Shown here in pieces: positions 35,539 to 63,130 of a stretch of DNA of 64,000 nucleotides (position 1 is its first letter; every line of letters starts with the position of its first letter). The DNA is from Zobellia nedashkovskayae (lineage in GTDB: Bacteria > Bacteroidota > Bacteroidia > Flavobacteriales > Flavobacteriaceae). Both the position numbers and the translations under genes were made by a program. The notes below the pieces were generated by a model, which did not search any database, was not told where the DNA came from, and worked only from the letters and a program-made list of their open reading frames with translations. The DNA lies in contig NZ_JADDXR010000002.1 in assembly GCF_015330125.1 (NCBI RefSeq), positions 4,786,685-4,850,684 on the forward strand. The letters run 5' to 3'.

Positions 35539-35550
35539 AATAGTGGAGTT

Positions 35551-35670
35551 TTAAGAGTTTTGATTAATTAATGACGTAAGTCCATTTCTATTTCCTGACC
35601 CGCTGTAATGCAACGTGTTGCTAATTGACCATTCGGTAACTAAAGCTTTAGATTTTTTTAAAGTTTTCAT
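35551..35670 (-). CDS. Small ORF (39 codons) between aceB and aceA
   Basis: A complete frame from ATG at 35670 to TAA at 35551 encodes a basic, Ser/Asn-rich peptide beginning MKTLKKSKALVTEWS. It ends 12 bases before the aceA ATG and starts about 78 bases after the aceB stop, past the hairpin at 35707-35739. The placement fits a translated leader that couples to aceA, but a chance frame is possible. No family known to me. Confidence 0.4.
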   Translation of the reverse strand: MKTLKKSKALVTEWSISNTLHYSGSGNRNGLTSLINQNS

Positions 35671-35706
35671 ACTTTTGTTTTACGTTATTATTTATTAATA
35701 ATTAGG

Positions 35707-35739
35707 ACCCTGTAATAGATGTTCGCGCATCTGCAGGGT
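35707..35739 (-). other. Hairpin between aceB and the small ORF
   Basis: Outer arms ACCCTG / CAGGGT and inner arms AGATG / CATCT around TTCGCG, with bulges. There is no T-run on the minus strand. More likely an mRNA-stability or attenuation element than a terminator, setting the aceB:aceA ratio. Confidence 0.5.
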
Positions 35740-35748
35740 TCTTTCTTT

Positions 35749-37347: not shown

Positions 37348-37396
37348 ATCTCGATTGTTTTATGAAACAATATTAAAATAAAGTTTTCACATATTC

Positions 37397-37446
37397 TAGC
37401 GAACGTTCGCTAAATTTTAAACTTTAACATAATTTACAATGTTCGC
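37397..37446. promoter_or_regulatory. Palindromic operator of the glyoxylate operon
   Basis: The 16-base perfect palindrome TAGCGAACGTTCGCTA (37397-37412) sits in the 126-base divergent gap between aceB and the ScfR-like gene. A half-site GTTCGC recurs at 37441-37446, 28 bases from the regulator ATG. Position and symmetry point to binding by the adjacent regulator, with autoregulation. Confidence 0.65.
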
Positions 37447-37473
37447 ATAATTGATTATCTTTGCTCTTGAACT

Positions 37474-38949
37474 ATGGAAGAAGAATACGTTAAGCTCATT
37501 TTTGGACTGAAATTAAAACAGATCCGCACCGAAAGAAATCTATCTCTGTTTGGATTATCAAAGCTTGCCAAACTATCAAAATCGTATCTGAACGAAATTG
37601 AAAAAGGCAAGAAATATCCAAAGACCGATAAGATTATTATACTATCAGAAAAATTAGATATTCCTTACGATGACCTCGTTTCTTTAAAATTGGATAAGAA
37701 TCTTGCCCCTATTGGTGAAATTTTACAATCCAAGATTCTAAAGGAAATTCCATTGGAACTTTTTGGAATAAAAGAGAGCAACCTAATTGATATTATTGCA
37801 AACGCGCCTGATAAGGTCAATGCCTTTATCACTACTATAATTGAAGTTGCTAAACATTACAACTTTAATAGGGAGAGTTTTTACCTTTCCTCTTTACGCT
37901 CCTACCAACAGTCTAACTATAATTATTTTGATGATTTAGAACAGAAAGTAGTTAAGTTTTGCAAGGCATATCAGATAGATTTGAAGTCTCCAGTATCATC
38001 TAAAGAACTAGAAGAGGTTCTTGTTGAGGAATACGGTTACACTATAAATAACAACGATTTAAAAAAGCACAAAGAACTTTACGACTTGCGCTCTGTCTTT
38101 GTACCAAAAACTAAAACCTTATTACTGGCAAGTGATATAGATGAGGCGCAACGCACTTTTATATATGCCAAAGAAATAGGCTACAACTACTTGGATTTTG
38201 AGCAACGTCTTTACACGTTTCCATGGATTAAGTTTGAAAATTTTGATCAAGTGCTGAACAATTTTTACGCCTCCTATTTTGCCGGCGCACTTTTGTTGCC
38301 TAGAGCGGCACTGGTTAACGAGTTTTCAACACTCATTAAAAAAGACACTTTTGACAAGGTAGCTTTTATAAAGATTTTTTCCTTTTTTGCGGCTTCACCG
38401 GAAACTTTCTACCAACGTTTAACAAATCTACTACCACAAGATTTTAACATTCAGACGCTATTTTTTTTACGTTTTACCCATGACGTAGGAAGTAAAAATT
38501 ATTACCTGACAAAAGAATTGCATTTACCCAGTCAACAATCTCCTCATAGTAATGAAACCAATGAGCATTATTGTAGAAGATGGGTTTCATTAAAGGTGCT
38601 AGCTGACATCGATAAAAGTAAAGAAGATCATGCTTTTGATATACAAATATCCAAATACCCGGATGATGACGTCTCATACCTGGTATTTTCTTCTGCCACA
38701 AAAGATCCATTTAAAAAGGATCAATATAGAAGTATTAGTATTGGTCTGCTTATCAATAAGCAATTGAAAAAGAAAATGGCCTTTTTAGAAGACCCGAAAA
38801 TAGACACACAAATAGTTGGTAACACCTGTGAACGTTGTTCTATAATGGACTGTAAGGAGCGAGTGGTAGCTCCAAAAATCTTAGAGAAAATCAAAAAAAA
38901 CAAAGTAATAGATGAAGTAGTTTCTGAGCTGACGGCCAAATTTAGCTAG
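37474..38949 (+). CDS. XRE-family regulator of the ScfR/RamB type
   Basis: 491 residues. The N-terminal XRE HTH (residues ~8-65) has RTERNLSLFGLSKLAKLSKS. A large middle region resembles ImmA/IrrE-type or DUF955-like folds without a visible zinc motif. The C-terminal Cys-rich patch NTCERCSIMDCKERVVAP is typical of short-chain fatty acyl regulators (DUF2083). RamB/ScfR family members control the glyoxylate and propionate routes in other bacteria. Divergent from aceB, with the palindrome at 37397 between them. Confidence 0.9.
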   Translation: MEEEYVKLIFGLKLKQIRTERNLSLFGLSKLAKLSKSYLNEIEKGKKYPKTDKIIILSEKLDIPYDDLVSLKLDKNLAPIGEILQSKILKEIPLELFGIKESNLIDIIANAPDKVNAFITTIIEVAKHYNFNRESFYLSSLRSYQQSNYNYFDDLEQKVVKFCKAYQIDLKSPVSSKELEEVLVEEYGYTINNNDLKKHKELYDLRSVFVPKTKTLLLASDIDEAQRTFIYAKEIGYNYLDFEQRLYTFPWIKFENFDQVLNNFYASYFAGALLLPRAALVNEFSTLIKKDTFDKVAFIKIFSFFAASPETFYQRLTNLLPQDFNIQTLFFLRFTHDVGSKNYYLTKELHLPSQQSPHSNETNEHYCRRWVSLKVLADIDKSKEDHAFDIQISKYPDDDVSYLVFSSATKDPFKKDQYRSISIGLLINKQLKKKMAFLEDPKIDTQIVGNTCERCSIMDCKERVVAPKILEKIKKNKVIDEVVSELTAKFS

Positions 38950-47360: not shown

Positions 47361-50300
47361 TTAAAAAGAATTGACCACTAATTTAATTTCATGCTTACCT
47401 GGTTCCAAGCGCACAGAGCCAAAAGCAGCGTTTACTTTTTTACCATTGTGCATGAGTTCTTTTCCTGGTGATGGAGCTATTTCAAATTCCGCAACCATAT
47501 TAGCTGGAATCTCAATTTCGAAAATTTGAAGCCTAGGAGTTTCATATTTGTAGCTTCCTTTTATAGTTCCTTTTATGGTAGGCACTTCAATGCTGCTATT
47601 TTTTAAATCGCTCATTTGAGGTTTGATAGTAGCAATTCCAAATCCTGGTGTTTTAGGTTGAATACCCCAAAGTCCACGTGGGATGGCATTAGCCGGCACA
47701 GCACCCCAAGCATGGTTCCAATCTAGATTATTCTTATACTTTAAATCCCAAGCTTCCAAGGTCATAGTAGAACCGATACGAATCATGTTATACCAACTTC
47801 TATCACTTGTATCTGTTAGCAGTTCTAAAGCGTAATCTGCCGCTCCTGCGTTATAAAGGCCGTCCATTAAATATTGTGAACCGTAAACACTACACGCCAT
47901 TCCGCGTGACTTCACGTACTCCACAACAGAGGAAATATGTTCCTCAGGCACCATATTAAAAGCCAAGGGCAACATATTAGCATGTAAGGCAGCATGATCC
48001 GTTCCGATACCATCAACATAAATACCTCGCTCTGAATCGAACATTTTTTCATTGACCGCTTTTTTAGCTTTTAAAGCACGAAGTTCAAAATCTCTAGCTT
48101 CCTCAGTTTTACCCAAGACTTTTGCAAATTCGGACATGATATTCATATTCTGGTAATAGAATGCATTCACTACGGTATTGTAATCTTTAAAAACATAGGC
48201 ATCCCGTTCTCCTTTATTTGATGGGTCTCCTCCCCAACCTGCAGATGGCCAATCTACAATATCCCTAAAGGTCTCCTTTAACTGTGGAGAAAAACCTAAA
48301 TTCTTCATTAACTCCGGCGTCATTTTAGTAGAAGTAATCAACCCTTCTTCATTAGAAAGCTCATAAAGGGTCTTGTATTTTAAATGGTCATAATATTTTT
48401 CAATAAGCTCCGTATTGCCCGTATACATATAATCTGCATAGAACATGAGCGCCACGTGCTGCTGCCATTCGGTAGGCCAGGTTGGGTGTTCCATAAAATA
48501 TTCTATGGTCTGCCTTGCAATGGCATATTCTCGATCGGTGGTGTAATGACTTAATTGGTTCAAATACGCATCTGCCTCATACGGAATGCGCTCACGGTCA
48601 CCATCTACATAGAGTCCATTAAAAGTAGTGGCCTTAATCGTATATTTACAGATTTCCCAAACTTGATTTAAAATGTCATCTGAGCTTTTGAAACTACTAG
48701 CATCATCTTCCCAATAACTATGATGTGCCAGTAGCGTGAAATCTTCTGCAGTAATGGACTCTTTTACACCATCAACCTCAACATATCTAAACGGCATTAA
48801 AACCGGAAAGTCTTTTGGAAGCGGTAGCGCCTTGCCTGGCCTTGTATTCCTTTCATCTACTTGTACCTGAAGTTGGTATTCTGTTTGATCAGGGCTTACA
48901 GCCATTTTAATTTCCTGATATCTGATATGACTTCTGTGGAAAGGTGTCCTGTTGATGTTTTCTCCATCTAATTGTTCCCCTATTCTAAAAGTAAGACTGT
49001 CACTCTCTTTGGTTTTATATGTAAAGTCTAGAGTTGCGAAAGCTGCTTTTCCAAAGTCCATGAAATAGGTTTCGCCTTTTTTTTCAAATTTGACGGGTTT
49101 AATTTCATCAATTTGAAAACTGTTGGGAGTGGTTATCGTTGCTTTAGGACTTCCCATAGTAAAAGACTGACTTTGAGAATAGCGTGAAAGCCGATTGTCT
49201 TGGTCCCAAATTCGTACTTTCCAGAAATAAGTCTCTCCACTTTTCAATGCTGTACCTTCATACTCTATTTCTGACGAGGTACTTGTTCTTATTTGCTTGC
49301 TATCCCAAACATCACCAATATTATTGGTAATGTTCTCTTTAGATGAAGCAACCAATATTTGATAAGCCGATTGTGAAACCGCTCCGTCCGGCACCACCCA
49401 CCCAAATTCTGGTTCAGTATCAATTACCGTAACCCTTTCTGTGTTCCTTATCCACTCCACAACCAAATCACTAGGGCCTTTAGAATAGTCATCGGAAAGC
49501 TCAAGAATAAGGTCATTTGTTTTGTTGCGAAATGCCGCTAACTTTTCGGCGTATTTTGAATCTTTTGCTAGGTTGTTAATCTCCTTAGGGTCGTCTTCTA
49601 AATTGTAAAGTTCTTCAAAAGACTGATTGTTAACATATCGGAAATATTTCCAATTTTCGGTACGGATTCCTTCGCTTGGCGCAATATTATCAAACTCCCA
49701 AAGATGCTCAATCAAGACGGTATCTCGCTCAAAATTTTTCTTCGATTTATCTACAATAGGCATGAGGCTTTTACCTTGCCACGCATTTGGTTGGGCAATT
49801 CCTGCTAAATCTAAAATAGTAGAAGGCACATCTATGTTCAATGCCAATGCATCACTATCTTTTTGTCTTTTTACCCTTGGGTCATATACAATTAAAGGCA
49901 CGCGAACAGAATTATCATATAACAACCATTTCCCCGCAAGCTGGCGTTCACCTAAAAAGTAACCGTTATCTCCCATTAGAATAATAACCGTGTTTTCTGC
50001 AAGTCCCTTCTTCTCTAGCTCACTCCTTATTTTGGTAATTTCCCTATCTATTCCAGAAATCATTCTGTAATATCCATTTACGCTATGTTGATATTTTTCG
50101 GGAGTATCATAACGCCACGTCCAACGTAAACGGTTAAAGCCATCACGTACAAATTTAGGTTGAGCCTCAAAATATTTGTCTTCTCCCAAATCTGCTTTGG
50201 GCATATTCATATTCTGAAGCAAAGCATCTGACTCCGTTTGCCAGAAATATTGGTCTTCAGCTCCATCATGGGCATGAGGAGCACTAAAACTCAAGGAAAG

Positions 50301-50882
50301 ACAAAAAGGTTTGTCTGTTTTTACTTCTGCAATAAAGTCTATCGCTTTTTGTCCTGTGTAGCGTGTTAAATGAACCGTGTCCTTACCTAACGTTTTATAG
50401 TAATAACCACGTTTGTCTTTATATTCATTATTACGGTCATAAGACTCATATTCATCAAACTGATTTTCTAGGTTATCATAACGGACTCCATATTTTCCAT
50501 AGAAACCAGTAAAATACCCATTCTCCTTTAAAATAGAAGGATAGGATTGAGTCATGTACGACGCTCTAATATTTCCTGTTTGAAAATTGAAGCTATGCGT
50601 ACGCTCATAAAGTCCGGTCAAAATACTAGCTCTACTGGCGGCACAAATTGGGGTGGTCACCATAGCATTCTCAAAATAAGTGCCTTTCTTGGCCAATTTA
50701 TCCATTTCTGGAGTAGAAATAAGCTTGTTTCCCGCATAACCCAGTGCATCAAAACGCTGGTCATCCGTTAAAATAAAAATAATGTTGGGCTTTTTAGCTT
50801 GCTGTTCTTGCGCCGCTTTTTGGGCCTTTAATGGTTGTAAGTATCCGCAAAGAAAAATAACCACCAAAACTCGTATTCTCAT
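47361..50882 (-). CDS. Bifunctional sulfatase / GH78 alpha-L-rhamnosidase fusion
   Basis: 1173 residues with a Sec signal ([14 protein letters not shown]). The N-terminal sulfatase domain (about 30-465) starts [18 protein letters not shown], with formylglycine motif CAASR (Cys80) and [13 protein letters not shown]. The GH78 part (about 470-1173) has a rhamnosidase N-domain, [18 protein letters not shown] (acidic catalytic patch) and the barrel sequence [19 protein letters not shown]. It would desulfate and remove terminal L-rhamnose in one protein. A similar sulfatase-GH78 fusion is known from Formosa agariphila ulvan use. A dedicated promoter with the shared operator precedes it. Confidence 0.95.
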
Positions 50883-50956: not shown

Positions 50957-51006
50957 CAAACTTATGTTTTATAGAAACATTACCCATCCTGTGCTGTCCT
51001 GAGGAT
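50957..51006 (-). promoter_or_regulatory. Internal PUL promoter with rhamnose-type operator
   Basis: On the minus strand, a -7 box TAAGTTTG (50957-50964) is preceded by GCACAGGA whose last base is at 50987: 22 bases lie between them. Two 10-base units, TCCTGTGCTG and TCCTGAGGAT (plus strand, 50987-51006), match the units before susC. This would let the sulfatase-GH78 gene be transcribed separately. Confidence 0.65.
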
Positions 51007-51051
51007 TGATACTTTTAACTGTTTATTTATCTACCATACCTGGCTGACAAA

Positions 51052-51627
51052 TTAAACCTTGTTTGTTATCACTTTAAGTATCCTTAGTATTTCGTCTACA
51101 CCCATTCTTTCTGTATAGTTGGCTTCAACATGGGCTTCTTCAATTGTTTGATTGGTGTTGATAATAAAAGTAGCCGGTATAGGAAGAGTTTTTGAACCGT
51201 CGCCATTTAGAAGTGTTAAATCACGTCGTGCATGATAATCTTCACCCGGATCAAATTGAAGACCATACGCTTTAATTACTTTCTGATCAGCATCACTGAG
51301 CACTTCAAAATCTAAATTATTCTTTTCTTTTGCCGTTAATGCGCTATCCGGACTTTGCGGACTGATTGCTAAAAATGAAGCTCCAAGAGATTTAATTTCC
51401 GGCAGTTTACTTTGAACTTCTCTAAGGTCTAAATTGCAAATGGGGCACCACTCACCACGATAAAATTTAATAACTACAATCCCTGATTTTAGCATTTCTG
51501 AAAGCGTAATATCTTTACCTAAAGCATTTGGCAAAGTAAAATCTGGAGCTTTATCGCCAACGGATAATCCTTGGAGATGACTTGCATTTGAAATAACTAA
51601 CTTTTGAAAATCTTGTAATTCACTCAT
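51052..51627 (-). CDS. Peroxiredoxin (AhpC/TSA family)
   Basis: 191 residues, no signal peptide. The thioredoxin-fold core has VIKFYRGEWCPICNLDLREV with the two-Cys CxxC, and APDFTLPNALGKDITL upstream. Reduces hydrogen peroxide or organic hydroperoxides. Encoded between the DUF1080 and sulfatase-GH78 genes. In this operon it may protect envelope enzymes or a redox step linked to the Gfo/Idh protein, or be a passenger. The start at 51627 is the only early Met. Confidence 0.9.
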   Translation of the reverse strand: MSELQDFQKLVISNASHLQGLSVGDKAPDFTLPNALGKDITLSEMLKSGIVVIKFYRGEWCPICNLDLREVQSKLPEIKSLGASFLAISPQSPDSALTAKEKNNLDFEVLSDADQKVIKAYGLQFDPGEDYHARRDLTLLNGDGSKTLPIPATFIINTNQTIEEAHVEANYTERMGVDEILRILKVITNKV

Positions 51628-51662
51628 ATAATATTGAATTATGTTCTTTAAAATTGATGTCC

Positions 51663-52490
51663 TTACAGGTTCTTCAACCGTATATTTCTATACTTAACTT
51701 TCATTGGCGGACCTACATGAACCTGTACTCCTAAATATCCTTTTAACTTTCTATTTATAGCGTCTTCATCATTAACATCACTCATTAAAACTCCATTTAC
51801 ATAATGTTGAAGTCTATTACCTTTTATAATAAGATGTACCTCGTTCCAATCCTCACTCTTTATTTTTGTCTTCAGGGAATCTGATTCGCCCAAAGAACCT
51901 ACCACTTCCCTACTCTGCCAACAGTTATTTTTCACATTAGCTCTTAACGAACCGTTAGTATCAGGATTATCTTGGCTATTAATAGTTACTTTTTCTCCTC
52001 TATAGGCCAAGGTAGCCCTTTTTTTCTCCTCATAGTTTTGACCGGTATACCTTCTCTTACCATCAATATCTGCTTGGTATCCTTTCATGGCATTAGGAAT
52101 TGTATCTATTAAATCACTCCTATAATTAATACCGCTATTCCCAGATTCAGCTATTTTAAATTCCAACTTCAATTCAAAATCATCTGGTTGATCTCCTTCC
52201 CAGATAATAAAAGTATTACTTTTTAAAAGAGTTTCTGGGGTTACCTCACCCACTAACGCACCATTTTCTACACGCCAATAATTAGGATCACCTTTCCAAC
52301 CCGTTAAGGTTTCGCCATCAAAAATATTTACAAAGCCATCTCCTTCCTCTAGAATTTTAACTACAGCGTCAGCTTCTATCGTTGTTTCTTGCTTTTTTTC
52401 TTTGCAAGATTGAACGTATGCAAGCAACATAAGGGCCATAAAACAGCCTGCTAAATATTTTGATACTTTTCTACTATTTTTATACATCAT
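51663..52490 (-). CDS. DUF1080 (3-keto-disaccharide hydrolase-like) lipoprotein
   Basis: 275 residues from Met at 52490; an upstream in-frame Met at 52514 is possible but gives a poor signal. The lipoprotein signal is LLAYVQSC. The DUF1080 beta-sandwich is seen in FVNIFDGETLTGWKGDPNYW, EFKIAESGNSGINYRSD and HYVNGVLMSDV. DUF1080 enzymes cleave 3-keto-glycosides made by Gfo/Idh oxidoreductases. Encoded directly after SusD, upstream of the peroxiredoxin, with a Gfo/Idh gene later in the operon. Confidence 0.9.
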   Translation of the reverse strand: MMYKNSRKVSKYLAGCFMALMLLAYVQSCKEKKQETTIEADAVVKILEEGDGFVNIFDGETLTGWKGDPNYWRVENGALVGEVTPETLLKSNTFIIWEGDQPDDFELKLEFKIAESGNSGINYRSDLIDTIPNAMKGYQADIDGKRRYTGQNYEEKKRATLAYRGEKVTINSQDNPDTNGSLRANVKNNCWQSREVVGSLGESDSLKTKIKSEDWNEVHLIIKGNRLQHYVNGVLMSDVNDEDAINRKLKGYLGVQVHVGPPMKVKYRNIRLKNL

Positions 52491-52568
52491 ATTTTTTTTA
52501 TGATTAAAGGTCATGGATAACCATGACCTTTAAATATTTGTATCCTGATATCTTCTAGGTTAATTTAA

Positions 52569-54065
52569 TTAAAAATTAGGATTTAGAGAGGACTCTGAAG
52601 CTGGAAGAGCGTATCGTTCGGAAATATTGGTAAAGACATTACCTCGTGGTTCTACTCCTGCGGGATAGTAATAGTCAATCGGGTTTGCCTTTATATTGTT
52701 CCCATGAGCCGTAATCACGTCTATTGCACGACCCGTTCTTACCAAGTCAAACCACCTTTTGTTCTCAAAAGCGAGTTCTACTCTTCTTTCATTAAAAATC
52801 GCCTCACCTAAATCACCTGTCGGCTCACCAAGACCGGCACGTGTACGAACTTGATTTAAATAAGGAAGAGCTTCGCCACTCTTACCTTGTTCTTCTAAAG
52901 TTTCTGCTAAAAACAACAGCACTTCAGAGTACCGATAAATAGGCCAATTCATACCATGGTTACCATTTAGAGCATGAGGCTCAACATATTTCTTAATAAT
53001 TGGGTACACACCATCTTCCCAAAAACTCTCACTAGCCGTTACGTACATAATAGAAGCTTCCTCCCTTAAGTCTCCATCTTCATAAGCTTCAATAATATCT
53101 GGCGTAGGAATATTATTTCCTTCACCATTAAGAGGTTGCGGATTAGATGTTCCAGTTATTAAACCAACTTCCTCTGCATTAAGTGGTCTTGGAAGAAAGT
53201 TATATAAAAAACTACCGTTAAGCCCTTCAGCACCTTCTCTATACTGAATTTCAAAAATAGACTCCATGTTGTTCTTGTTTTCGCTATTTCCAGAAAAAGC
53301 ATCTTCATAATTAGGCATTAACATGTACTCATTACTGGCTACGACTTCCTTCAACAAAGTTTCTGCTTCTCCCCATTGTTCACGTACTATATAAACATTT
53401 GCCAAAAGTGTTTGAGCTGCACCCAATGTAACTCTACCTTGCTCTTGTTCTGATTTAAGCGGTAATAAGCCCGCAGCCGCTCTGGCATCCTCAATTATTT
53501 GTGTGTACAGTTCATCTTCACTAGAAAGCGGTAAAGCGGCTCCATCACGATCTAATACAGGTTCTAAGTGCATTGGCACACTACCAAATAATTGTGTTAA
53601 TTCAAAATAAGAATAAGCTCTTAGAAACAATGCCTGACCTTTTAGATTTGCCTTTTCTTTCTCATCAAATTCTGCTTCGTCAATAGTTGTCAAAATTTGA
53701 TTGGTACGAGCTACGACTTGATAATACTCGCGATAAATTGATTCTACATGAGTATTAGCTGTAATGCCACCGTCACTGGGTATAGAGTGATCTGCGATAT
53801 CTTCTTGATTGTCCGTTGCTCCAAACGCCGTATTACGAGCAAAATAGGTGTTGTCAGAATGCATCTCCGCCAAATATGGCTTAGCTTGATTATTAATTCC
53901 GCGTAAAGGAACATACGCTCCGTTTACTGCTTGAGTAAAATCTTCCTGTGTTTTAAAGAATGTAGGGACACTCAATGAATCCTCAGGAAATATAGTTAAT
54001 TCATCATCGCAACTGGTGACTAAAAAAGTCATCGAGGCTACAATACAGTAGAATATCTTTTTCAT
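52569..54065 (-). CDS. susD: SusD/RagB-family glycan-binding lipoprotein
   Basis: 498 residues from Met at 54065. A longer frame opens at 54113, but Met17 gives the proper lipoprotein signal (FLVTSC). SusD features: FPEDSLSVPTFFKTQEDFTQAVNGAY, ALFLRAYSYFELTQLFG (helical TPR-like core), and the RRVELAFENKRWFDLVRTG C-terminal block. Forms the lid of the outer-membrane SusCD importer. It is 10 bases after susC stop. Defines the PUL; the ligand is inferred to be a rhamnose-rich sulfated glycan. Confidence 0.95.
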   Translation of the reverse strand: MKKIFYCIVASMTFLVTSCDDELTIFPEDSLSVPTFFKTQEDFTQAVNGAYVPLRGINNQAKPYLAEMHSDNTYFARNTAFGATDNQEDIADHSIPSDGGITANTHVESIYREYYQVVARTNQILTTIDEAEFDEKEKANLKGQALFLRAYSYFELTQLFGSVPMHLEPVLDRDGAALPLSSEDELYTQIIEDARAAAGLLPLKSEQEQGRVTLGAAQTLLANVYIVREQWGEAETLLKEVVASNEYMLMPNYEDAFSGNSENKNNMESIFEIQYREGAEGLNGSFLYNFLPRPLNAEEVGLITGTSNPQPLNGEGNNIPTPDIIEAYEDGDLREEASIMYVTASESFWEDGVYPIIKKYVEPHALNGNHGMNWPIYRYSEVLLFLAETLEEQGKSGEALPYLNQVRTRAGLGEPTGDLGEAIFNERRVELAFENKRWFDLVRTGRAIDVITAHGNNIKANPIDYYYPAGVEPRGNVFTNISERYALPASESSLNPNF

Positions 54066-54123
54066 GTTTTCAGTTTTATAATTTGTCGAAATTGAAATAT
54101 GTTTGGACATCATCGTTTTTGAT

Positions 54124-57100
54124 TTAAAAGTTTAAGTTTAAACCAACACTAAATATTCTTGGAACAGGATATCCGGAAATATCAACACCAGAAGCAAGGT
54201 TGCCACCATCTCCATCTCCATTGTTCTGTACACTTATCTCAGGGTTTGGTCCACCCCAATATTTCGTAAAAATATGTACATTCTGAATTGACCCATAAAT
54301 ACGGGCAGACTTAAAATACTTTTCAACTCCAGGTATTGTGTACCCTAAAGTGATATTTCTAATATTAAAATATGAAGCATCAGCAACAAAACGATCGTTT
54401 ACCCAATCTCTTTCTATACCGGTAACATTACCGCCACCAACCGTAGTACCATAGAAGCCATCTCCAGGGTCTTCAATAGATCTAAAGCGATTCTCGACAT
54501 CAGCCAAAAGATTAAAAACACCGTCTAAGTTTGCCGTACTATATAAATGCCTCACCAACAATTGATTCCCTTGAGAACCAGTACCCACTACTGACAAATC
54601 AAAATTACCATAATTGATTGTATTCGTAATACCATAGGTGAAATCAGGGAAAGGACTGCCGGTAATGGCTCGATCATCATCATCACCTCCATTTGTTATA
54701 ATACCATCACCATTAATATCTACTAACTTAATACTTCCTACAGTGGAACGACCTGGAACCTGTGGTGAACTATCTAAATCTTCTTGATTTAAGTAAACGC
54801 CATCGGATACATGTCCATAAAATTGCCCAAAAGGTTGCCCCACTTGGGTAATATGCCATCCTCCTGGACCATATACCCTATCTATACCATCTGCTAATGC
54901 CTCTACCCTATTTCGGTTGAATGAAATATTGGCATTAGTTGTCCATTTAAATTTACCCGTTGTATTAACAGTGTTTAGACCAAACTCATGACCCCAAAAA
55001 CGAATCTCTCCAATATTATCGCTAAATTGATTAAAACCAGATTCCTCCGCAACTTGAACATTGTATAATAGATTAGTGGTATTTTTGGTATAGTAGTCAT
55101 ACACGAAAGACACCCTGTCATTAAAAAGGCTTAAATCAAGTCCTAAATCAAACTGCTTGGTTGTCTCCCAACCTAAGTTTGAATTTGAAAGAGAATTTAC
55201 AGCAGAACCAGGCGCAAAAGTGTCTCCGAAAACCGCATTTACCGTATTGTCTATTAAAGCATATTGGGTGTAATTACCAATGTTATTATTACCCGTAACT
55301 CCGAAACTACCTCTTAATTTAAGTAATGATATGGTCTCAGAATTTTCTAAAAAAGATTCATCAGAAACAATCCAACCCGCTGATACGGAAGGAAAAGTAC
55401 CCCAACGATTCTCAGATCCAAACCTTGAAGAACCATCACTACGTATTGAACCGGTCAATAAATATTTTCCTTTATAGTTATACGTAAGTCTAGATAAAAA
55501 AGAAACCAAACTCCACTCTCTTACCTCATCAAATGTTCCACTTCTGTTTATGTTGGTGGCTCCTTGTATTGTTGGCAAGCGGTCATCTGCAAAATCAGAT
55601 GCCTGAACCCTATTACGATCTTGCCGGTATTTTTGATACGTAAAACCCCCTAAGACAGAGAAAGTATGATTACCAATACTTTTATCATAAGTAACCGTAT
55701 TCTCGTTCAACCAAGAAAAAGTATTTCGGTCATCCCAAATTGCCTCGTTATTGGTAGGTACAGGTCTATTGATAGAGTATGTAGCATTAGTAGGACTGAA
55801 GAATTCATATTGCTCATTATATAATTCAGCATTCAAACTAGTTTTTATAGCAAGACCCTCAATAGGTTTATATTCCAAAAAGGCATTTGTCAAAAGATTA
55901 ATACTTTTAGTTTCATCTTTAATACGCTCTGCAGAATTTAACCAGTTAGCGTAAGAAAAAATGTTTCCTGTATCTGCTGGAAAATTATTGAATTCCGTTC
56001 TTGAGCCATCCGCATTATAAATTGGCATAATAGGCCAAGTATGTAATGCATTAAACAAAAGACCGGTACCTCTGGTACCATCTGTTCTTGGCACATTGTC
56101 AATTACATGATTAGGTGCTATGTTTACACCAATACGGACCTTGTCGGATAAAGTATAATCTAAATTCGCACGAAGTGAATATCGCTTATAATCAGAACCT
56201 AAAACAACCCCTTCTTGATCAAAGAAACCTAACACAACCGATGTTTTCAATTTTTCTTTATTAGAAGTAATACTAAGATTGTAATTGGTCATAGGTGCCG
56301 TTCTTAGAAGCGCATCATACCAATCATTAGTCTGCCCTTCATATTGAGAAGGATTCTGGAAAATATCAGGAACGGGACTACCTTGATCCTCGTAATATTC
56401 TTTTTTAAATTGAGCAAATTGAACAGCATCCATCATTTCTATTCTTCCACGCTCCGGAACACTTTGCATACTGGTAGTCATATTTAAACTCACACTTGTC
56501 TCTCCCGCTCTTCCGCTTTTGGTGGTAATTAATACAACACCATTTGCTGCTCTAGAACCATACAACGAAGTAGAAGCGGCATCTTTAAGTACACTAATGT
56601 CCTGAATTTCATCTGGGTTTATATTGTTGATTCCTCCCGAAATAGGAAAACCATCCACCACGTATAAAGGATCACTACCACCAGAAACCGATAATTGTCC
56701 CCTAATACGTACGGACATGCCTTGACCTGGTTTACCTGTGGTCTGGTTAATTTGAACTCCAGGAAGTCTACCTTGTATTTTTTGTGTAACCTGAGAAACC
56801 GGAATATCCGCAAGTTCATTGGCTTGAATAGTAGATACAGAACCTGTTACTTGTCGCTTAATTTGGGTACCATAACCTACTACTACAACTTCATCTAGAA
56901 GTGCTGCATCTTCGGCCATCGATATATCTATCTGGCTTTTACCGTCTACTGTAATTTCTTGAGCAGTAAATCCTATGTAAGTAAACACCAAAACACTATT
57001 GGCGTTTGGAGCTACAATACTGTAGTTCCCGTCAAAATCTGTTACAGACCCGGTAGTTGTTCCTTTAACAACTACGTTTACCCCGGGCAAGGCTTGTGAA

Positions 57101-57219
57101 TCGTCTGCCGAAATAACTGTACCCGTAACGGTAACGCTTTGTGCCTGCATTGCTAAACCCCATAATAGGGTAACAATAATTAGAAATCCTTGTGAATTCC
57201 TTCGAAATCTTTTTTTCAT
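54124..57219 (-). CDS. susC: SusC/RagA-family TonB-dependent outer-membrane transporter
   Basis: 1031 residues with a signal peptide (about 1-26). A carboxypeptidase-regulatory-like domain (28-115, VTVTGTVISADDSQALPGVNVVVKGT) is followed by a plug (about 120-245: VDGFPISGG, DISVLKDAASTSLYGSRAANG) and a beta-barrel ending RIFSVGLNLNF. Imports glycan fragments with SusD using TonB energy. It is first in the PUL operon; its promoter carries a phased operator array at 57317-57356. Confidence 0.97.
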   Translation of the reverse strand: MKKRFRRNSQGFLIIVTLLWGLAMQAQSVTVTGTVISADDSQALPGVNVVVKGTTTGSVTDFDGNYSIVAPNANSVLVFTYIGFTAQEITVDGKSQIDISMAEDAALLDEVVVVGYGTQIKRQVTGSVSTIQANELADIPVSQVTQKIQGRLPGVQINQTTGKPGQGMSVRIRGQLSVSGGSDPLYVVDGFPISGGINNINPDEIQDISVLKDAASTSLYGSRAANGVVLITTKSGRAGETSVSLNMTTSMQSVPERGRIEMMDAVQFAQFKKEYYEDQGSPVPDIFQNPSQYEGQTNDWYDALLRTAPMTNYNLSITSNKEKLKTSVVLGFFDQEGVVLGSDYKRYSLRANLDYTLSDKVRIGVNIAPNHVIDNVPRTDGTRGTGLLFNALHTWPIMPIYNADGSRTEFNNFPADTGNIFSYANWLNSAERIKDETKSINLLTNAFLEYKPIEGLAIKTSLNAELYNEQYEFFSPTNATYSINRPVPTNNEAIWDDRNTFSWLNENTVTYDKSIGNHTFSVLGGFTYQKYRQDRNRVQASDFADDRLPTIQGATNINRSGTFDEVREWSLVSFLSRLTYNYKGKYLLTGSIRSDGSSRFGSENRWGTFPSVSAGWIVSDESFLENSETISLLKLRGSFGVTGNNNIGNYTQYALIDNTVNAVFGDTFAPGSAVNSLSNSNLGWETTKQFDLGLDLSLFNDRVSFVYDYYTKNTTNLLYNVQVAEESGFNQFSDNIGEIRFWGHEFGLNTVNTTGKFKWTTNANISFNRNRVEALADGIDRVYGPGGWHITQVGQPFGQFYGHVSDGVYLNQEDLDSSPQVPGRSTVGSIKLVDINGDGIITNGGDDDDRAITGSPFPDFTYGITNTINYGNFDLSVVGTGSQGNQLLVRHLYSTANLDGVFNLLADVENRFRSIEDPGDGFYGTTVGGGNVTGIERDWVNDRFVADASYFNIRNITLGYTIPGVEKYFKSARIYGSIQNVHIFTKYWGGPNPEISVQNNGDGDGGNLASGVDISGYPVPRIFSVGLNLNF

Positions 57220-57286
57220 AATCTTGAGATGTTTAGTTGAGTAACATTAAATCCTTAATATTTTGAGCGGAATTTTAAGGGATAAT

Positions 57287-57356
57287 CAAATATATACGGG
57301 TCATTCTAAGAACTCATCCTGTACAGTGCTGTAGTGTCCTGTACTATCCTGTACTA
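57287..57356 (-). promoter_or_regulatory. susC promoter with four-unit, 10-base-phased operator array
   Basis: Plus-strand units TCCTGTACAG (57317), TGCTGTAGTG (57327), TCCTGTACTA (57337) and TCCTGTACTA (57347) repeat at exactly 10 bases. On the minus strand the nearest unit reads GTACAGGA, ending at 57317. Twenty-two bases separate it from the -7 box TATATTTG (57287-57294). The array lies about 65 bases before the start codon and replaces a -33 box. Confidence 0.75.
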
Positions 57357-57502
57357 CACGAGAGTTCCATGGACCAAAGGTTAATTTGACATGGACAACC
57401 TTGTTAAATCTCTCTTAGAACAAACCCATTATATGCTTTCTTCAAAATTTTGAATTACCTTTTAACTCTATAATAAATTCGTTACAATTAATTTCACTTT
57501 AA

Positions 57503-58414
57503 ATGAAACTAGCATCAATAGATATTGGGTCTAATGCCATACGATTACAGGTTGTAAAAGTTTATGAAGAAGATGATTTAGTCAGCTTTAAAAACTTGCA
57601 ATTATTACGTTTTCCTTTACGATTAGGTCACGATGTCTTTTCTCAAGGAGAAATATCGCAGCCTACAAAAGAGAAGTTTGTGAAGCTAATGAGCACCTTT
57701 AAACATTTAATAGACCTGTACGAAGTGGAAGATTACTATGCCGTTGCCACTTCCGCTATGCGGGAAGCAAGCAATGGAAAGGAAGTTAGCAATCAAATCC
57801 TGAAAGATGTTGGTATGAAAATCAATGTCATTAGTGGAAAGAAGGAGGCTAGCATTCTAAACAAAGCCATTAAGCCTACGCTACAGGATAGAAAATACGT
57901 GCATATTGATGTGGGCGGTGGTAGTACGGAACTAAATTTACTTGAAGGGGGCAAACTTATACAAAGTAGATCTTTTAAGATAGGATCAGTACGGCAATTA
58001 ACCGCAAAAGAACGCGCGGCTGTTTTTGCATCAATGAAAGAATGGCTTCACACCACAAGTTTTTATAAATCAAAAAATATAGTTGGTATTGGTACTGGCG
58101 GTAACATTAACAAGCTCTACGGACTGGCCAACAAGGCTTCAAACATGGCGATTTCTTTTGCTGAATTGAAAGCATTGCGAGCTTATGTAAGTGAGTTCAC
58201 TTATGAGCAACGCATGTCTATTTTAAAGATGAATCCGGACAGGGCCGATGTTATCATTCCTGCTTCTGAGATTTATTTAAGGGTACTAAAGGAAATGGGG
58301 AGTGACCAGATTCTTGTCCCTAAAGTGGGTTTAAAAGATGGTCTTATTTATGAGCTTTACGAACAAAGAACTCATAAAAATCTTGACAGAATAGAGTATT
58401 TGGGCTACCTCTAA
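57503..58414 (+). CDS. Ppx/GppA phosphatase-family protein
   Basis: 303 residues. The actin/hexokinase-like fold shows LASIDIGSNAIRLQVV, AVATSAMREASNG, HIDVGGGSTELNLLEGG and GIGTGGNINKL, the four phosphate/substrate loops of exopolyphosphatase/guanosine pentaphosphatase enzymes. It lacks the C-terminal extension of E. coli Ppx. Acts on polyphosphate or pppGpp. It lies on the plus strand between the PUL and the GntR-type gene, with which it converges (24-base gap). Probably unrelated to sugar use. Confidence 0.92.
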   Translation: MKLASIDIGSNAIRLQVVKVYEEDDLVSFKNLQLLRFPLRLGHDVFSQGEISQPTKEKFVKLMSTFKHLIDLYEVEDYYAVATSAMREASNGKEVSNQILKDVGMKINVISGKKEASILNKAIKPTLQDRKYVHIDVGGGSTELNLLEGGKLIQSRSFKIGSVRQLTAKERAAVFASMKEWLHTTSFYKSKNIVGIGTGGNINKLYGLANKASNMAISFAELKALRAYVSEFTYEQRMSILKMNPDRADVIIPASEIYLRVLKEMGSDQILVPKVGLKDGLIYELYEQRTHKNLDRIEYLGYL

Positions 58415-58438
58415 ACTACTATTCAATAGCTGATTTGA

Positions 58439-59485
58439 CTATATAGAATTTCTGTCGATAAAATGAAATGGGTTTTTTACTTTCCCTTTTTTCTTATCCA
58501 TAATCATACGGGCAGCTGTTTCTCCCATCGCTTTAAAATCTGTGGAGATACATGTAATTCCCAATAATTGTTTTAGGGGCGTATCGTTATAGGAAATTAC
58601 ACCTATATCATTTCCTAGCTCAAATTCCTGGTTCCGTATTTGGTTAACGAGATTCACCAAATCCGATTCGCTTATGGTAATGAACAAATCGCCTTTTTTT
58701 AGAATCATATCATCATAAATCTCGTCTAGCACCTCAAAATCTATGGAGTGCTCGCTACAAAATTTTCTAAATCCATGTAAAATTCGCTTGGGATAAGGAT
58801 AAACCGATTCTTTGGGATATGTGATGAACAATTTTTCATATTGAGAAATCTTACTATATCCTTCTTTTAATGCATTATAAATATCATTCTCAAAATCCTG
58901 ATAAATTTCAATATGGTTTCCTTCAATTTCGGCAACAGGATTATCCATTATGACTAATTTTTCCTTTGGGATTTCATTTATTGCTTTAATTACTTCAGGG
59001 GTATAGCTCGTATGTTTTAGTTTTTCTGTCTTAAAATGAGGCATGATGACATAATAGTCATAAGCATTCCTATTTTTTTCCAAAAGATTTAGAAAAAGTT
59101 CTTCCTCGCAATGGTAAATGAAAAGACTTGTATGAGATGTTCCTCCAATGCTATTTATAAAAGAATTATAAATCCGCATCTTATACGAACTCAACTTATT
59201 GATTAGAAAGAGGATATTGACTTTTGATATTAATTTAGTTCTGGCTATATAATACCCTTTTCCCCTTATGGATATGATTACCTTCCGCTCCCTTAAAATA
59301 CTATACGCCTTTTCTACTGTATCTCTTGATAACAGGTACTCTTCACTGAACATGTTTATAGACGGAATTTTATCGTCCATCTTTAAATTACCTGCAGAAA
59401 TATTATAAATGATAGAGTCTACAATCTGTTTGTACTTTGGAACTCTAGAATTCTCATTTATATTGATAAAATTAAATATATTCAT
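58439..59485 (-). CDS. GntR-type regulator with LacI-like sensor domain, probable rhamnose regulator
   Basis: 348 residues. N-terminal GntR winged helix (about 10-75): VPKYKQIVDSIIYNISAG and EEYLLSRDTVEKAYSILRERK. The rest is a periplasmic-binding-like domain (VNILFLINKLSSYKMRIYN to GITCISTDFKAMGETAARMIMDKK). Architecture as in AraR-type regulators. It is divergent from rhaEW, and the shared operator motif lies between them. It is therefore the best candidate for the regulator of susC, the sulfatase-GH78 gene and rhaEW. Ligand likely L-rhamnose or a derivative. Confidence 0.9.
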   Translation of the reverse strand: MNIFNFININENSRVPKYKQIVDSIIYNISAGNLKMDDKIPSINMFSEEYLLSRDTVEKAYSILRERKVIISIRGKGYYIARTKLISKVNILFLINKLSSYKMRIYNSFINSIGGTSHTSLFIYHCEEELFLNLLEKNRNAYDYYVIMPHFKTEKLKHTSYTPEVIKAINEIPKEKLVIMDNPVAEIEGNHIEIYQDFENDIYNALKEGYSKISQYEKLFITYPKESVYPYPKRILHGFRKFCSEHSIDFEVLDEIYDDMILKKGDLFITISESDLVNLVNQIRNQEFELGNDIGVISYNDTPLKQLLGITCISTDFKAMGETAARMIMDKKKGKVKNPFHFIDRNSI

Positions 59486-59593
59486 CAGCAGAAGTCTTTA
59501 TCTTTTCCATTGTAATGGTCTTACAACATGGCAATAATAAAGATGTAATTTGGTAATCTACCAAAAAAAAACATTTTTATTTTTCACATAAGC

Positions 59594-59637
59594 GGTACAG
59601 TACAGGACACAAAGCTTTCTTTCATAATCTACTTTTG
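59594..59637 (+). promoter_or_regulatory. rhaEW promoter with the shared operator
   Basis: GTACAGGA (59600-59607) inside GGTACAGTACAGGACAC (59594-59610), 22 bases, then the -7 box TACTTTTG (59630-59637). The spacing equals that at susC and at the sulfatase-GH78 gene. The leader would be about 18 bases. Confidence 0.75.
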
Positions 59638-59661: not shown

Positions 59662-61767
59662 ATGAAAAATACAACACAACAATTCAAGTACGTCGATCAT
59701 CTTTGGGATGAAAAGAAAGCAGCTGCACTAGGTGATGACCAAGTGGCTTTATTTCTTTATCGCTCAAATATTCTTGGGGCAGATTTAAGAATAACTAACT
59801 ATGGTGGTGGAAATACGAGTTGCAAAACCATTGAAAAAGACCCATTGACCGATGAGGATGTAGAGGTTATGTGGATTAAAGGTTCTGGTGGAGATATCGG
59901 TACATTAACTAAAGCTGGAATTGCAGGTCTTTATACTGAAAGATTAAGAAGTTTAAAGAATGTCTATGGAGGTCTTGAAGATGAAGATCGCATGGTTGGT
60001 CTTTTTAACCATTGTATATATGACCTAGACAGTAAAGCCCCTTCTATAGATACGCCATTGCACGGGTTACTTCCGTTTAAACATATTGACCACCTACACC
60101 CAGATGCTTTAATAGCGGTTGCCGCAGCAAAGGACAGCGAAAAGGTTACCAAAGAAATTTGGGGAGATACAATGGGTTGGGTACCATGGCAACGACCAGG
60201 TTTTGACTTAGGTCTTCAATTAGAAAAATGTCTGAACGATAACCCTGGTATACGTGGAATAGTTTTAGGAAGCCACGGACTTTTTACTTGGGGAGATACT
60301 TCTTATGAATGTTACATGAACAGTCTTGAAGTTATTGAAACTGCTTCTGAATACATAGAAAAAAAGATTGCCGCTAACGGAAGTGTGTTTGGCGGTCAAA
60401 AGATAAAAAGTCTTGCAAAAGAGGAGCGTTTGGAAAAAGCCGCTCAACTCATGCCAATGCTAAGAGGCCTCTGTTCTTCTGAAAACAGAATGATCGGGCA
60501 TTTTAATGATAGTGATGTTGTTCTTGAGTATATCAATAGTAATGATTTAGAGCGCTTGGCACCTATGGGCACGTCATGTCCTGACCACTTTTTAAGAACT
60601 AAAATTCAACCTTTAGTATTAAAGTTAGATACTAAAGAAGACCTTTCTGATACGGAAGCCGTTCTTGCCAAATTACGTCCAGCTTTTGAACAGTACAGAA
60701 AGGAATATCAATCCTATTATGATAACCATAAGCGTCCTAATAGCCCTGCCGTTAGAGATGCCAGTCCGGTTATAATTATATATCCAGGAGTAGGTATGTT
60801 CAGTTTTGCTAAAAACAAGCAGACTACCCGCGTTGCCAATGAATTTTACGTAAACGCTATTAACGTAATGCGTGGTGCAGAAGCTATTACGGAATACACA
60901 TCCTTGCCAAGACAAGAAGCTTTTGATATTGAATATTGGTTACTAGAAGAAGCAAAATTACAGCGTATGCCAAAAGAAAAACCATTATCCCGCAAAGTAG
61001 CTTTGGTTACTGGTGCAGGTGGCGGTATAGGTAAAGCTATTGCAGATAAGTTGGCCGAAGAAGGTGCCAATGTTGTATTGACGGATATTGTTGAAGATAG
61101 ATTAAAAGAAGGTGTTGCTACTTACGCTAGAGATATTGCAAGCTATGCTGTTTGTGATGTAACAAAAAGCGAATCAGTTGCAGATGCCTATAAAAAGGCT
61201 TGTTTGGAGTTTGGTGGTGTAGACATCGTTGTTCACAGTGCCGGTCTTGCCATTTCAAAACCTTTAGAAGATACTACGGAGAAAGATTGGGATATTCTTC
61301 AAAATGTTCTGGTAAAAGGCCAATTTGAACTAGCAAAACAAGCGGTAGCGGTTATGCGGAAACAAAACCTAGGTGGTGACGTTATTAGTATTGCTAGTAA
61401 AAATGGTTTGGTTTCAGGCCCAAATAATGTAGCTTATGGAACAGCTAAAGCTGCCCAACAACATATGGCTCGTTTACTAGCCGCAGAGTTAGGTGGTGAT
61501 AAAATACGTGTGAATACGGTTAATCCTGATGGGGTTATTGTTGGTAGTAAAATATGGGAAGGAGATTGGGCCGAAGGTCGTGCCAAAGCATACGGAATTA
61601 CGGTTGAGGAGCTTCCTACCCATTACGCAAAGCGTAATCTTTTAAATGAAATTATTTATCCTAAAGATATTGCCGATGGGGTCTTTGCCTGTGTTGGTGT
61701 ATTGAACAAAACAACAGGAAATATTATTAATGTAGATGGCGGTATGGCCAATGCATTTGTACGATAG
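59662..61767 (+). CDS. rhaEW: Bifunctional L-rhamnulose-1-phosphate aldolase / L-lactaldehyde dehydrogenase
   Basis: 701 residues. The N-terminal class II aldolase domain (about 1-430) has NYGGGNTSCKTIEKD, a substrate loop and the His motif DHLHPDALIAVAAA. The C-terminal SDR domain (about 445-701) starts VALVTGAGGGIGKAIA, with the catalytic YGTAK. Splits L-rhamnulose-1-phosphate to DHAP and L-lactaldehyde and oxidises the latter. This is the RhaEW architecture known from other rhamnose regulons. It is the first gene of the rhamnose set; a hairpin separates it from rhaI. Confidence 0.95.
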   Translation: MKNTTQQFKYVDHLWDEKKAAALGDDQVALFLYRSNILGADLRITNYGGGNTSCKTIEKDPLTDEDVEVMWIKGSGGDIGTLTKAGIAGLYTERLRSLKNVYGGLEDEDRMVGLFNHCIYDLDSKAPSIDTPLHGLLPFKHIDHLHPDALIAVAAAKDSEKVTKEIWGDTMGWVPWQRPGFDLGLQLEKCLNDNPGIRGIVLGSHGLFTWGDTSYECYMNSLEVIETASEYIEKKIAANGSVFGGQKIKSLAKEERLEKAAQLMPMLRGLCSSENRMIGHFNDSDVVLEYINSNDLERLAPMGTSCPDHFLRTKIQPLVLKLDTKEDLSDTEAVLAKLRPAFEQYRKEYQSYYDNHKRPNSPAVRDASPVIIIYPGVGMFSFAKNKQTTRVANEFYVNAINVMRGAEAITEYTSLPRQEAFDIEYWLLEEAKLQRMPKEKPLSRKVALVTGAGGGIGKAIADKLAEEGANVVLTDIVEDRLKEGVATYARDIASYAVCDVTKSESVADAYKKACLEFGGVDIVVHSAGLAISKPLEDTTEKDWDILQNVLVKGQFELAKQAVAVMRKQNLGGDVISIASKNGLVSGPNNVAYGTAKAAQQHMARLLAAELGGDKIRVNTVNPDGVIVGSKIWEGDWAEGRAKAYGITVEELPTHYAKRNLLNEIIYPKDIADGVFACVGVLNKTTGNIINVDGGMANAFVR

Positions 61768-61849: not shown

Positions 61850-63130
61850 ATGAGAATAGACAAAGGTCAACTTGGAGATACCAATAAAAAAGGAATCACC
61901 GAGCATAATGAGCGTTACGATTTTTTAGCCTATACACTTTTAAAAAAGGGTAAAGATGTTAACGTAATAATTGAGAAATTACAGGACTTTCAGGTAGCCA
62001 TACCAAGTTGGGCATTGGGCGCAGGTGGTACAAGGTTCGGACGTTTTGGATTTCAAGGAGAACCTTCAAGTCTAGAGTTAAAAATAGATGATGTTGGCTT
62101 AATTCACTCACTCACTCAAAGTGCAGGAGCCATATCATTACACATACCTTGGGATGTACCTACAGATTACAATGCCATTAAAGATTTGGCAAACTCTCAT
62201 AATATCCTATTTGACGCAGTCAACTCAAACACTTTTCAAAATCAAAAGAACAGTAAGGAGAGTTATAAGTTTGGCTCTTTAAGTAACACGAGTAAAGCTG
62301 CTCGTGAACAGGCTGTAGCTCACAATATTGAAGTAGTTAAAATTGGAGAGAAATTAGGTTCAAAAAGCTTGACGGTCTGGTTGGCAGACGGCTCTAATTT
62401 TCCTGGACAAACTAATTTTCAATCGGCTTTACAAAATACAGAAGATAGCTTAAAGGACATATACAAAACACTTCCGGAAGACTGGAAAATGTTTATAGAA
62501 TATAAACCCTACGAACCTAATTTCTATAGTACGGTAATTCAGGATTGGGGAACTTCATTTATGCTAGCTAATGCTTGCGGAGAAAAAGCGTATACTTTAG
62601 TAGATTTAGGACACCACCTTCCTAACACTAATATTGAACAAATAGTTTCCACCTTAATGTTAAAGGGAAAGCTAGGCGGATTCCATTTTAATGATAGTAA
62701 ATATGGCGATGACGACCTTACCGTTGGTAGTATAAAGCCTTATGCTCTATTCTTAATTTTCAATGCTTTGGTTTATGGAATGGAAAACAATCCACAAAAC
62801 CCTTATCCAGCTTGGATGATAGATGCCAGTCATAATATAAAAGACCCGTTAGAAGATTTAATCCAATCTTTAGAGGCCATACAGGAAGCGCACGCGAAAG
62901 CATTGCTTGTTGACCAAGAATTATTAGCTAAGGCACAACTGAATCATGACGTTGTTAAATGTCAAGAGATTCTTCAAGATGCTTACCGCACAGATGTTAG
63001 ACCATTGTTGCAAAAAGCAAGGTTAAACAGCGGCGGGGCATTAAACCCAATTAACGCTTATAGATCTTTAAAGGTGAGAGAGAATTTAATAAAAGAAAGA
63101 GGTGCTAACTCCGTAGCATCCGGACTATAA
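61850..63130 (+). CDS. rhaI: L-rhamnose isomerase, RhaI type
   Basis: 426 residues, the RhaI (not RhaA) type. TIM-barrel features: SWALGAGGTRFGRFG, WLADGSNFPGQ, FIEYKPYEPNFY, LVDLGHHLPNTNIEQI (metal His/Asp) and GGFHFNDSKYGDDDL. Converts L-rhamnose to L-rhamnulose in the cytoplasm. It follows rhaEW by 82 bases across the hairpin and is followed 10 bases on by the FGGY kinase. Metal-dependent. Confidence 0.95.
   Translation: MRIDKGQLGDTNKKGITEHNERYDFLAYTLLKKGKDVNVIIEKLQDFQVAIPSWALGAGGTRFGRFGFQGEPSSLELKIDDVGLIHSLTQSAGAISLHIPWDVPTDYNAIKDLANSHNILFDAVNSNTFQNQKNSKESYKFGSLSNTSKAAREQAVAHNIEVVKIGEKLGSKSLTVWLADGSNFPGQTNFQSALQNTEDSLKDIYKTLPEDWKMFIEYKPYEPNFYSTVIQDWGTSFMLANACGEKAYTLVDLGHHLPNTNIEQIVSTLMLKGKLGGFHFNDSKYGDDDLTVGSIKPYALFLIFNALVYGMENNPQNPYPAWMIDASHNIKDPLEDLIQSLEAIQEAHAKALLVDQELLAKAQLNHDVVKCQEILQDAYRTDVRPLLQKARLNSGGALNPINAYRSLKVRENLIKERGANSVASGL

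Follow-up and report, generated by a model that had tools for sequence, protein, structure and literature searches.

The operator bound by AraR of Bacillus subtilis is a palindrome. The AraR subfamily combines a GntR-type winged helix-turn-helix (HTH) with a LacI-type sugar-binding domain and, as described in one account of the GntR family, is presented for the Firmicutes and is not defined by a palindromic operator (PMC4494728); the FadR/HutC/YtrA set of that account includes one Bacteroidetes regulator. A protein of the same build is encoded in a 64,000-nucleotide stretch of the genome of Zobellia nedashkovskayae (contig NZ_JADDXR010000002.1, positions 4,786,685 to 4,850,684), the whole of which is called the window here, together with three promoters that carry ACAGGA exactly 22 bases upstream of a −7 box and lie before rhamnose and polysaccharide utilization locus (PUL) genes. 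This promoter element, ACAGGA-N22-TAnnTTTG, and its probable regulator are the subject of this study. The system differs from AraR in several respects: the neighbours and targets of the protein are rhamnose genes and not arabinose genes; its host is a member of the Bacteroidota; its putative operator is better described as a direct repeat than as a dyad (1.27 against 0.77 bits per column pair); and the hybrid is probably an activator.

Tandem direct repeats about one helical turn apart also make up the pho box of PhoB, which takes over the −35 position and keeps a constant spacing to the −10 box. The element described here would work like a pho box; PhoB differs in protein family, signal and sigma factor. 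To our knowledge, the action of activators at the unusual −7-box promoters of Bacteroidota is poorly understood, and a GntR repressor of alginate genes in Zobellia has reportedly been described. Within the GntR family, the MocR-type regulators (GabR, TauR, PdxR) combine a GntR HTH with operators made of direct repeats, and they activate divergent targets (PMC5320631, PMC4494728); their sensor is aminotransferase-like, whereas that of the Zobellia protein is LacI-type, so that the latter may work like a MocR regulator without being a member of the group. Dimers of the GntR protein NanR of Escherichia coli occupy a tandem (GGTATA)3 operator (PMC8012715), but NanR has a FadR-type sensor and represses, and its repeat and spacing differ from those of the box here. 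RhaR of Bacteroides thetaiotaomicron likewise controls rhamnose catabolism in the Bacteroidota, but it is an AraC-family protein with a 21-bp operator period and a single operon (PMC3878776, PMC3870299). The regulators listed in a survey of rhamnose regulons are of the AraC, DeoR and LacI types, the terms “GntR” and “Flavobacter” being absent from its main text (PMC3870299). In searches of the open-licence text of PubMed Central, a scope outside which RegPrecise and the subscription literature fall, no description of this regulon was found.

In each of the three window promoters the element faces its own gene and the spacer is 22 bases. Upstream of rhaEW (59662..61767, plus strand), a bifunctional rhamnulose-1-phosphate aldolase/lactaldehyde dehydrogenase gene by NCBIfam equivalogs, ACAGGA lies at 59602-59607 and the −7 box, TACTTTTG, at 59630-59637. 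On the minus strand, ACAGGA at 57322-57317 is followed by TATATTTG at 57294-57287 before the gene of a susC-like TonB-dependent transporter (54124..57219; Pfam), and ACAGGA at 50992-50987 by TAAGTTTG at 50964-50957 before that of a sulfatase fused to a GH78 alpha-L-rhamnosidase (47361..50882; Pfam), the latter being an internal promoter of the PUL. All three downstream boxes match TAnnTTTG exactly, the sigma-A −7 box of Bacteroidota (PMC9723704). The arrangement claimed in a preliminary description of this DNA is thus borne out at every coordinate: the spaced pattern occurs three times against 0.04 expected per window, and none of 100 dinucleotide shuffles reached three. Bare ACAGGA is frequent in the window (39 found, 24 expected), and therefore the information sits in the spacing and in an extended box. 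The interpretation we favour, with a probability of roughly 0.7, is that the GntR/LacI hybrid binds a repeat over the −33 region and activates the sigma-A promoters of a rhamnose and sulfated-rhamnan regulon.

A consensus was built from 61 distinct sites locked at 22 bases, picked by ACAGGA-N22-TAnnTTTG in 82 fetched loci (window included) and numbered with the −7 box at −12 to −5, after PMC9723704. Thirty-one sites stem from loci chosen for a gntR homologue (the window, L037 and L073-L112) and 30 from loci L113-L140 chosen by GTACAGGA-N22-TAnnTTTG; G−42 and T−41 were thus preselected in the second group, and the columns upstream of them are free of that preselection. The extended consensus, C(A/G)GNA(C/T)AGTACAGGATA(G/C), covers −49 to −32, and ACAGGA forms the 3' portion of a tandem direct repeat, 18 bp long with a period of 10 bp, approximately CAGKAYAG-TA-CAGGATAG. 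At a 10-bp shift all eight column pairs agree (mean 1.27 bits), at a 5-bp shift the score is 0.85 bits with one of 13 pairs strongly negative, and the best dyad, centred at −43, reaches 0.77 bits with one of six pairs strongly negative. Because the 10-bp shift outscores both of the others, the box is best read as a tandem direct repeat. In the window it reads CGGTACAGTACAGGACAC at rhaEW (59593..59610, plus strand), spanning −49 to −32, and CAGGACAGCACAGGATGG at the internal PUL promoter (50984..51001, minus strand), where it was identified by matrix score and locked pattern. At susC four units stand in register (57351-57314, minus strand), the proximal 18-mer at 57331-57314 being the locked one. 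Four-unit susC arrays are found in further Zobellia loci (L163, L164, L166), in Maribacter (L171, L182, L184) and in L172, and Arenibacter has three units in L181 and about two in its remaining loci. The 18-bp repeat, the four units at susC and the sites beyond the window had been overlooked in the preliminary description. The motif variants AGTACAGG, ACTACAGG and AGCACAGG show no clear-cut correspondence to regulator clades by eye.

The lock was tested with an independent matrix, trained on 34 distinct 18-mers that do not lie upstream of rhaEW and applied to rhaEW promoters. Of 175 loci, 112 contained RhaEW, 111 remained after L037, a partial copy of the window gene, was dropped, 106 of these had RhaEW of at least 70% identity, and 98 were left after removal of identical sequences. 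A promoter was called locked if a box scoring at least 10 stood at gap 22 from a TAnnTTTG-like sequence with at most one mismatch in TTTG. Such a box is present in 97 of the 98 distinct promoters and locked in 96, with an exact −7 box in 50 and one mismatch in 46; the two unlocked promoters are those of L157, where rhaEW lies apart from gntR, and L232. The second most frequent gap was 20, with 10. Reversed sequences gave four boxes, none locked (0/98), and shuffled sequences no box (0/106). The opposite strand gave 10 boxes, eight of them locked; these are distinct sequences with −7-like boxes of their own and look like divergent promoters. Among promoters of RhaEW proteins 62-65% identical to that of the window, one in five is locked (L154). 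With the full matrix, 72 of 76 rhaEW promoters have the box and 71 are locked, the others being L156 and L157, in which rhaEW and gntR are not neighbours, L195 and L213, with RhaEW at 63-65% identity, and L232, a Neolewinella locus with two mismatches in its −7 box; the two promoter collections share species and their rows are not fully independent. The box reaches the Lewinellaceae (class Saprospiria), where Neolewinella and Lewinella (L232, L237, L240) bear it and a −7-like sequence is locked in two of the three.

The same gap prevails at other promoters. With the full matrix, 8 of 17 SusC promoters have their top-scoring 18-mer locked; among the remaining nine, eight have the best unit higher in the array and the proximal unit at gap 22, as determined by script for L163, L164, L166, L171 and L172 and by eye for L182, L184 and L191, for which the script returned “no lock”. 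The SusC promoter of L155 had no lock (1/17). A locked box also precedes the 71%-identical counterpart of the sulfatase-GH78 gene in L073. When 42 genomes with the regulator were scanned for GTACAGGA-N(10-36)-TAnnTTTG, gap 22 accounted for 45 of 129 matches, the runner-up being gap 23 with 9. The share was 6 of 95 in 42 genomes without a regulator homologue at E 1e-20 (Fisher p = 1.5e-7), these controls having been hand-picked by the analyst among genomes without a match in the regulator homologue search.

The targets are conserved as well. The 61 locked sites precede rhaEW (23), SusC-like genes (9), sulfatase-type genes (6), the gene of a 490-residue membrane protein (2), another gene (17) or no clear open reading frame (ORF; 4). 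Behind rhaEW, where read, follow rhaI, an FGGY kinase, an LldD-like dehydrogenase and the 490-residue membrane protein; in the window, a rhaI-like L-rhamnose isomerase gene occupies 61850..63130 (plus strand; NCBIfam, below the curated cut-off of both matched models), and a susD-like lipoprotein gene (52569..54113, minus strand; Pfam) follows susC. Sixteen of the 17 other targets were scanned and comprise two PL11 rhamnogalacturonan lyases, two GH3, two GH39, one each of GH5, GH31, GH43 and GH127, a rhaM mutarotase, a KduI, a GDSL lipase, a DHDPS-family protein, a transketolase and one protein without a match. To judge by predicted family, most would suit the use of polysaccharides that contain rhamnose; for the transketolase such a role is not obvious. 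Comparison with relatives therefore gives strong support to the earlier proposal that the element ties together the PUL, its internal promoter and the rhamnose genes.

The search for ACAGGA-N22-TAnnTTTG that the preliminary description had suggested, run on the 4.94-Mb genome (two contigs), gave six matches, four of them inside 4,837,641-4,856,869. The fourth site of this cluster (4,856,834-4,856,869, minus strand) precedes the gene of a 584-residue sulfatase, some 6 kb after the end of the window. The matches at 2316107 and 3269912 were taken as chance, as no 18-mer scoring at least 10 lies around them (L038, L039). The window and the next 15 kb hold eight 18-mers scoring at least 10, four of which are locked with an exact −7 box. 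A 0.80-Mb sample of the same genome holds 24 such 18-mers, of which one is locked. This fifth locked site, at 4,883,025 (minus strand; L286/L287), scores 26.1 with gap 22 to TAGTTTTA, and with the sulfatase site it makes two locked sites outside the window. It precedes the gene of a 925-residue protein that has a cytochrome-c domain, together with genes carrying DUF4432, AP_endonuc_2 and GFO_IDH_MocA domains, and an AraC-family gene adjoins it. A palindromic operator, GNACWGNACAGG, had been the first reading of the box and was displaced since the aligned sites fit the 10-bp direct repeat better. Its genome search gave 11 matches, five in the cluster (three single, two overlapping at the sulfatase site) and six outside it, of which 3165019 and 3672512 fall inside ORFs; the control gave none in the forward and one in the reverse direction.

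The candidate regulator, gntR (58439..59485, minus strand), is divergent from rhaEW in the window and in most relatives read. Pfam and a structural model with fold matches identify it as a GntR/LacI-type hybrid, and co-occurrence makes it a candidate reader of the box. The N-terminus is a GntR winged HTH (PF00392, residues 17-80, E 1.8e-9, above the cut-off) and the C-terminus a LacI/GalR-type sugar-binding domain (Peripla_BP_3, PF13377, E 1e-8). The AlphaFold2 model (predicted local distance difference test score 90.5, predicted template modelling score 0.71, weak linker at residues 83-85) matches LacI-family regulator structures, and the AraR DNA-binding domain (4egy) is among the solved structures matched. 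The nearest named homologues come from Zobellia, with up to 97% identity. A homologue at least 56% identical is present in 42 of 199 sampled genomes of the family, and the box 15-mer CRGTACAGTACAGGA, with at most one mismatch, is found in 37 of them, against 14 of the 157 others (p = 3e-23). In 30 loci, one per genome, taken from 30 of the 51 genomes with a 15-mer match, a −7-like box stands at 22 in 19 of 21 with the homologue and in none of 9 without a close one. Co-occurrence and the place divergent from rhaEW thus support the view that this protein is the natural candidate, within the limit set by its confounding with rhaEW. Side by side gntR copies occur in L082 (8736-10976; 72% and 63% identical to that of the window), near rhaEW, and neighbouring copies are found also in genomes G163, G070 and G153.

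These results lead us to propose a model in which the operator of the rhamnose and sulfated-rhamnan regulon would consist of two units of about 8 bp with a 10-bp period, at −49 to −32, with ACAGGA 22 bases from the −7 box. The two winged-HTH domains of a dimer of the 58439 protein would bind both units from the same side of the helix, and the bound hybrid would contact RNA polymerase from a fixed position over the −33 region, in a class II-type activation, with L-rhamnose or an early product bound in the LacI-type domain as the signal. At susC the four units would accommodate two dimers. As at class II-type sites, the box keeps a fixed distance (gap 22 in 96/98) and overlaps the upstream promoter element (−49 to −32). 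The preliminary description had left activation and promoter-blocking repression open; we infer activation because a protein that touches RNA polymerase needs its site held at a single base position and in a single orientation, as seen here over the −33 region at promoters of many kinds; repression is the main rival. In a more specific form, which we hold to be slightly better than an even bet, the protein would be a class II-type activator of AraR build whose two DNA-binding domains sit head to tail on a repeat that replaces the −33 box, switching on rhamnose catabolism and the outer-membrane machinery for sulfated rhamnose polysaccharides together, with the extra susC units raising cooperativity. 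With an operator that is defined and fixed in geometry, a candidate for the protein, and numerous natural promoters from marine species that can be cultured, the mechanism is testable base by base.

Several observations weigh against this model. Regulator and rhaEW presence are confounded: RhaEW occurs in 47 of the 199 genomes, and because all 42 genomes with a close regulator homologue are among them, co-occurrence alone cannot separate a regulator from its supposed target. The other five RhaEW genomes have a regulator homologue of 39-44% identity; in three of them, with 41-44%, it lies beside rhaEW and a recognisable box is kept at gap 22, and in two, with 39-41%, it lies apart and rhaEW has no box. 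Most GntR operators are palindromic (PMC4494728), and a weaker dyad, centred at −43, is present in this box too. AraR, a hybrid of the same build, is a repressor according to its PDB name. Finally, the element had been said to sit where a −33 box would be, with no other −33 seen. The position (−49 to −32) and the absence stand, but other promoters share the absence: a TTG −33 element at gaps of 17-21 is found at 2 of the 61 locked sites, from many species, and at 16 of the 118 further intergenic TAnnTTTG sites sampled from 0.8 Mb of the genome, and no peak of TTG appears upstream of 76 more TAnnTTTG sites of the target loci. Because most other sampled promoters of the genome also lack TTG, the absent −33 box is weak evidence that does not set the locked promoters apart, and, being distinctive in neither test, it was rejected as proof of activation.

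The main rival, which we regard as unlikely, keeps the operator and the protein and makes the latter a repressor that would block RNA polymerase at −33 in the absence of sugar and be released by rhamnose, as AraR is by arabinose. The AraR-like domain build (PMC4494728), the overlap of the box with the promoter and the existence of GntR repressors, NanR among them, that act at direct repeats (PMC8012715) argue for it, yet a repressor site need not be fixed to the base, and gap 22 and one orientation recur in 96 of 98 rhaEW promoters and at the other targets. One mismatch in 46 of 98 rhaEW −7 boxes, a figure that has no baseline, would fit a promoter that is helped rather than blocked.

Repeats in direct orientation with a spacing near one helical turn typify families other than GntR. 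Another regulator, for example AraC-type, response-regulator or SusR-like, might read the box, with gntR no more than a linked neighbour of the rha genes; we consider this improbable. Repeats of 10-11 bp are described for a DeoR-type RhaR (PMC3870299), the confounding with rhaEW applies here in its favour, and the fifth site has its AraC-family neighbour. However, a scan of 18 ORFs between 32 and 63 kb of the window brought out just two DNA-binding regulators, the 58439 protein and an XRE/M78 protein by the glyoxylate genes, and no further regulator beside the target genes; gntR keeps its divergent place in most relatives, and the locked box persists beside it even at 41-44% identity. It is very improbable that an alternative sigma factor recognises the box as its upstream element. 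Sigma-factor promoters do keep a constant distance to a −10-type element, but the downstream box here is the sigma-A TAnnTTTG (PMC9723704), and at susC the upstream box recurs every 10 bp, which a lone −35 element does not do. A chance likeness of the three promoters, for which the abundance of bare ACAGGA might speak, is hardly credible given the 0.04 expected for the spaced pattern, its conservation in relatives and the rhaEW lock.

The sulfatases, the GH78 rhamnosidase and the rhamnose catabolic genes point only to a sulfated, rhamnose-containing polysaccharide as the likely substrate. Ulvan was considered and not adopted, as no identified enzyme (sulfatases, GH78, GH97 and GH43 were seen) singles it out; Zobellia galactanivorans lacks key ulvan genes (PMC9296495). 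The locked box may serve as a signature for finding rhamnose and rhamnose-polysaccharide genes in degraders of algal polymers, including that of an unnamed conserved membrane protein. This 490-residue protein of the rha operon (L037:5817-7289, plus strand; G000:C2 ~4,852,316-4,853,788) has many hydrophobic segments and no match in Pfam or NCBIfam. Counterparts in relatives share 77-93% identity with it, and in L078 and L118 its gene is preceded by a separate locked box; it is a candidate L-rhamnose permease. A second class II aldolase-family protein (429 residues) follows the FGGY kinase in many relatives (e.g. L082:17391-18680) and is absent from the operon of the window. Between the susC promoter and gntR, in the orientation opposite to both, lies a Ppx/GppA phosphatase gene (57503-58414). 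Elsewhere in the window, at 33931-38949, the genes of isocitrate lyase and malate synthase adjoin a divergent gene for an XRE/M78-type regulator and form a glyoxylate-shunt cluster.

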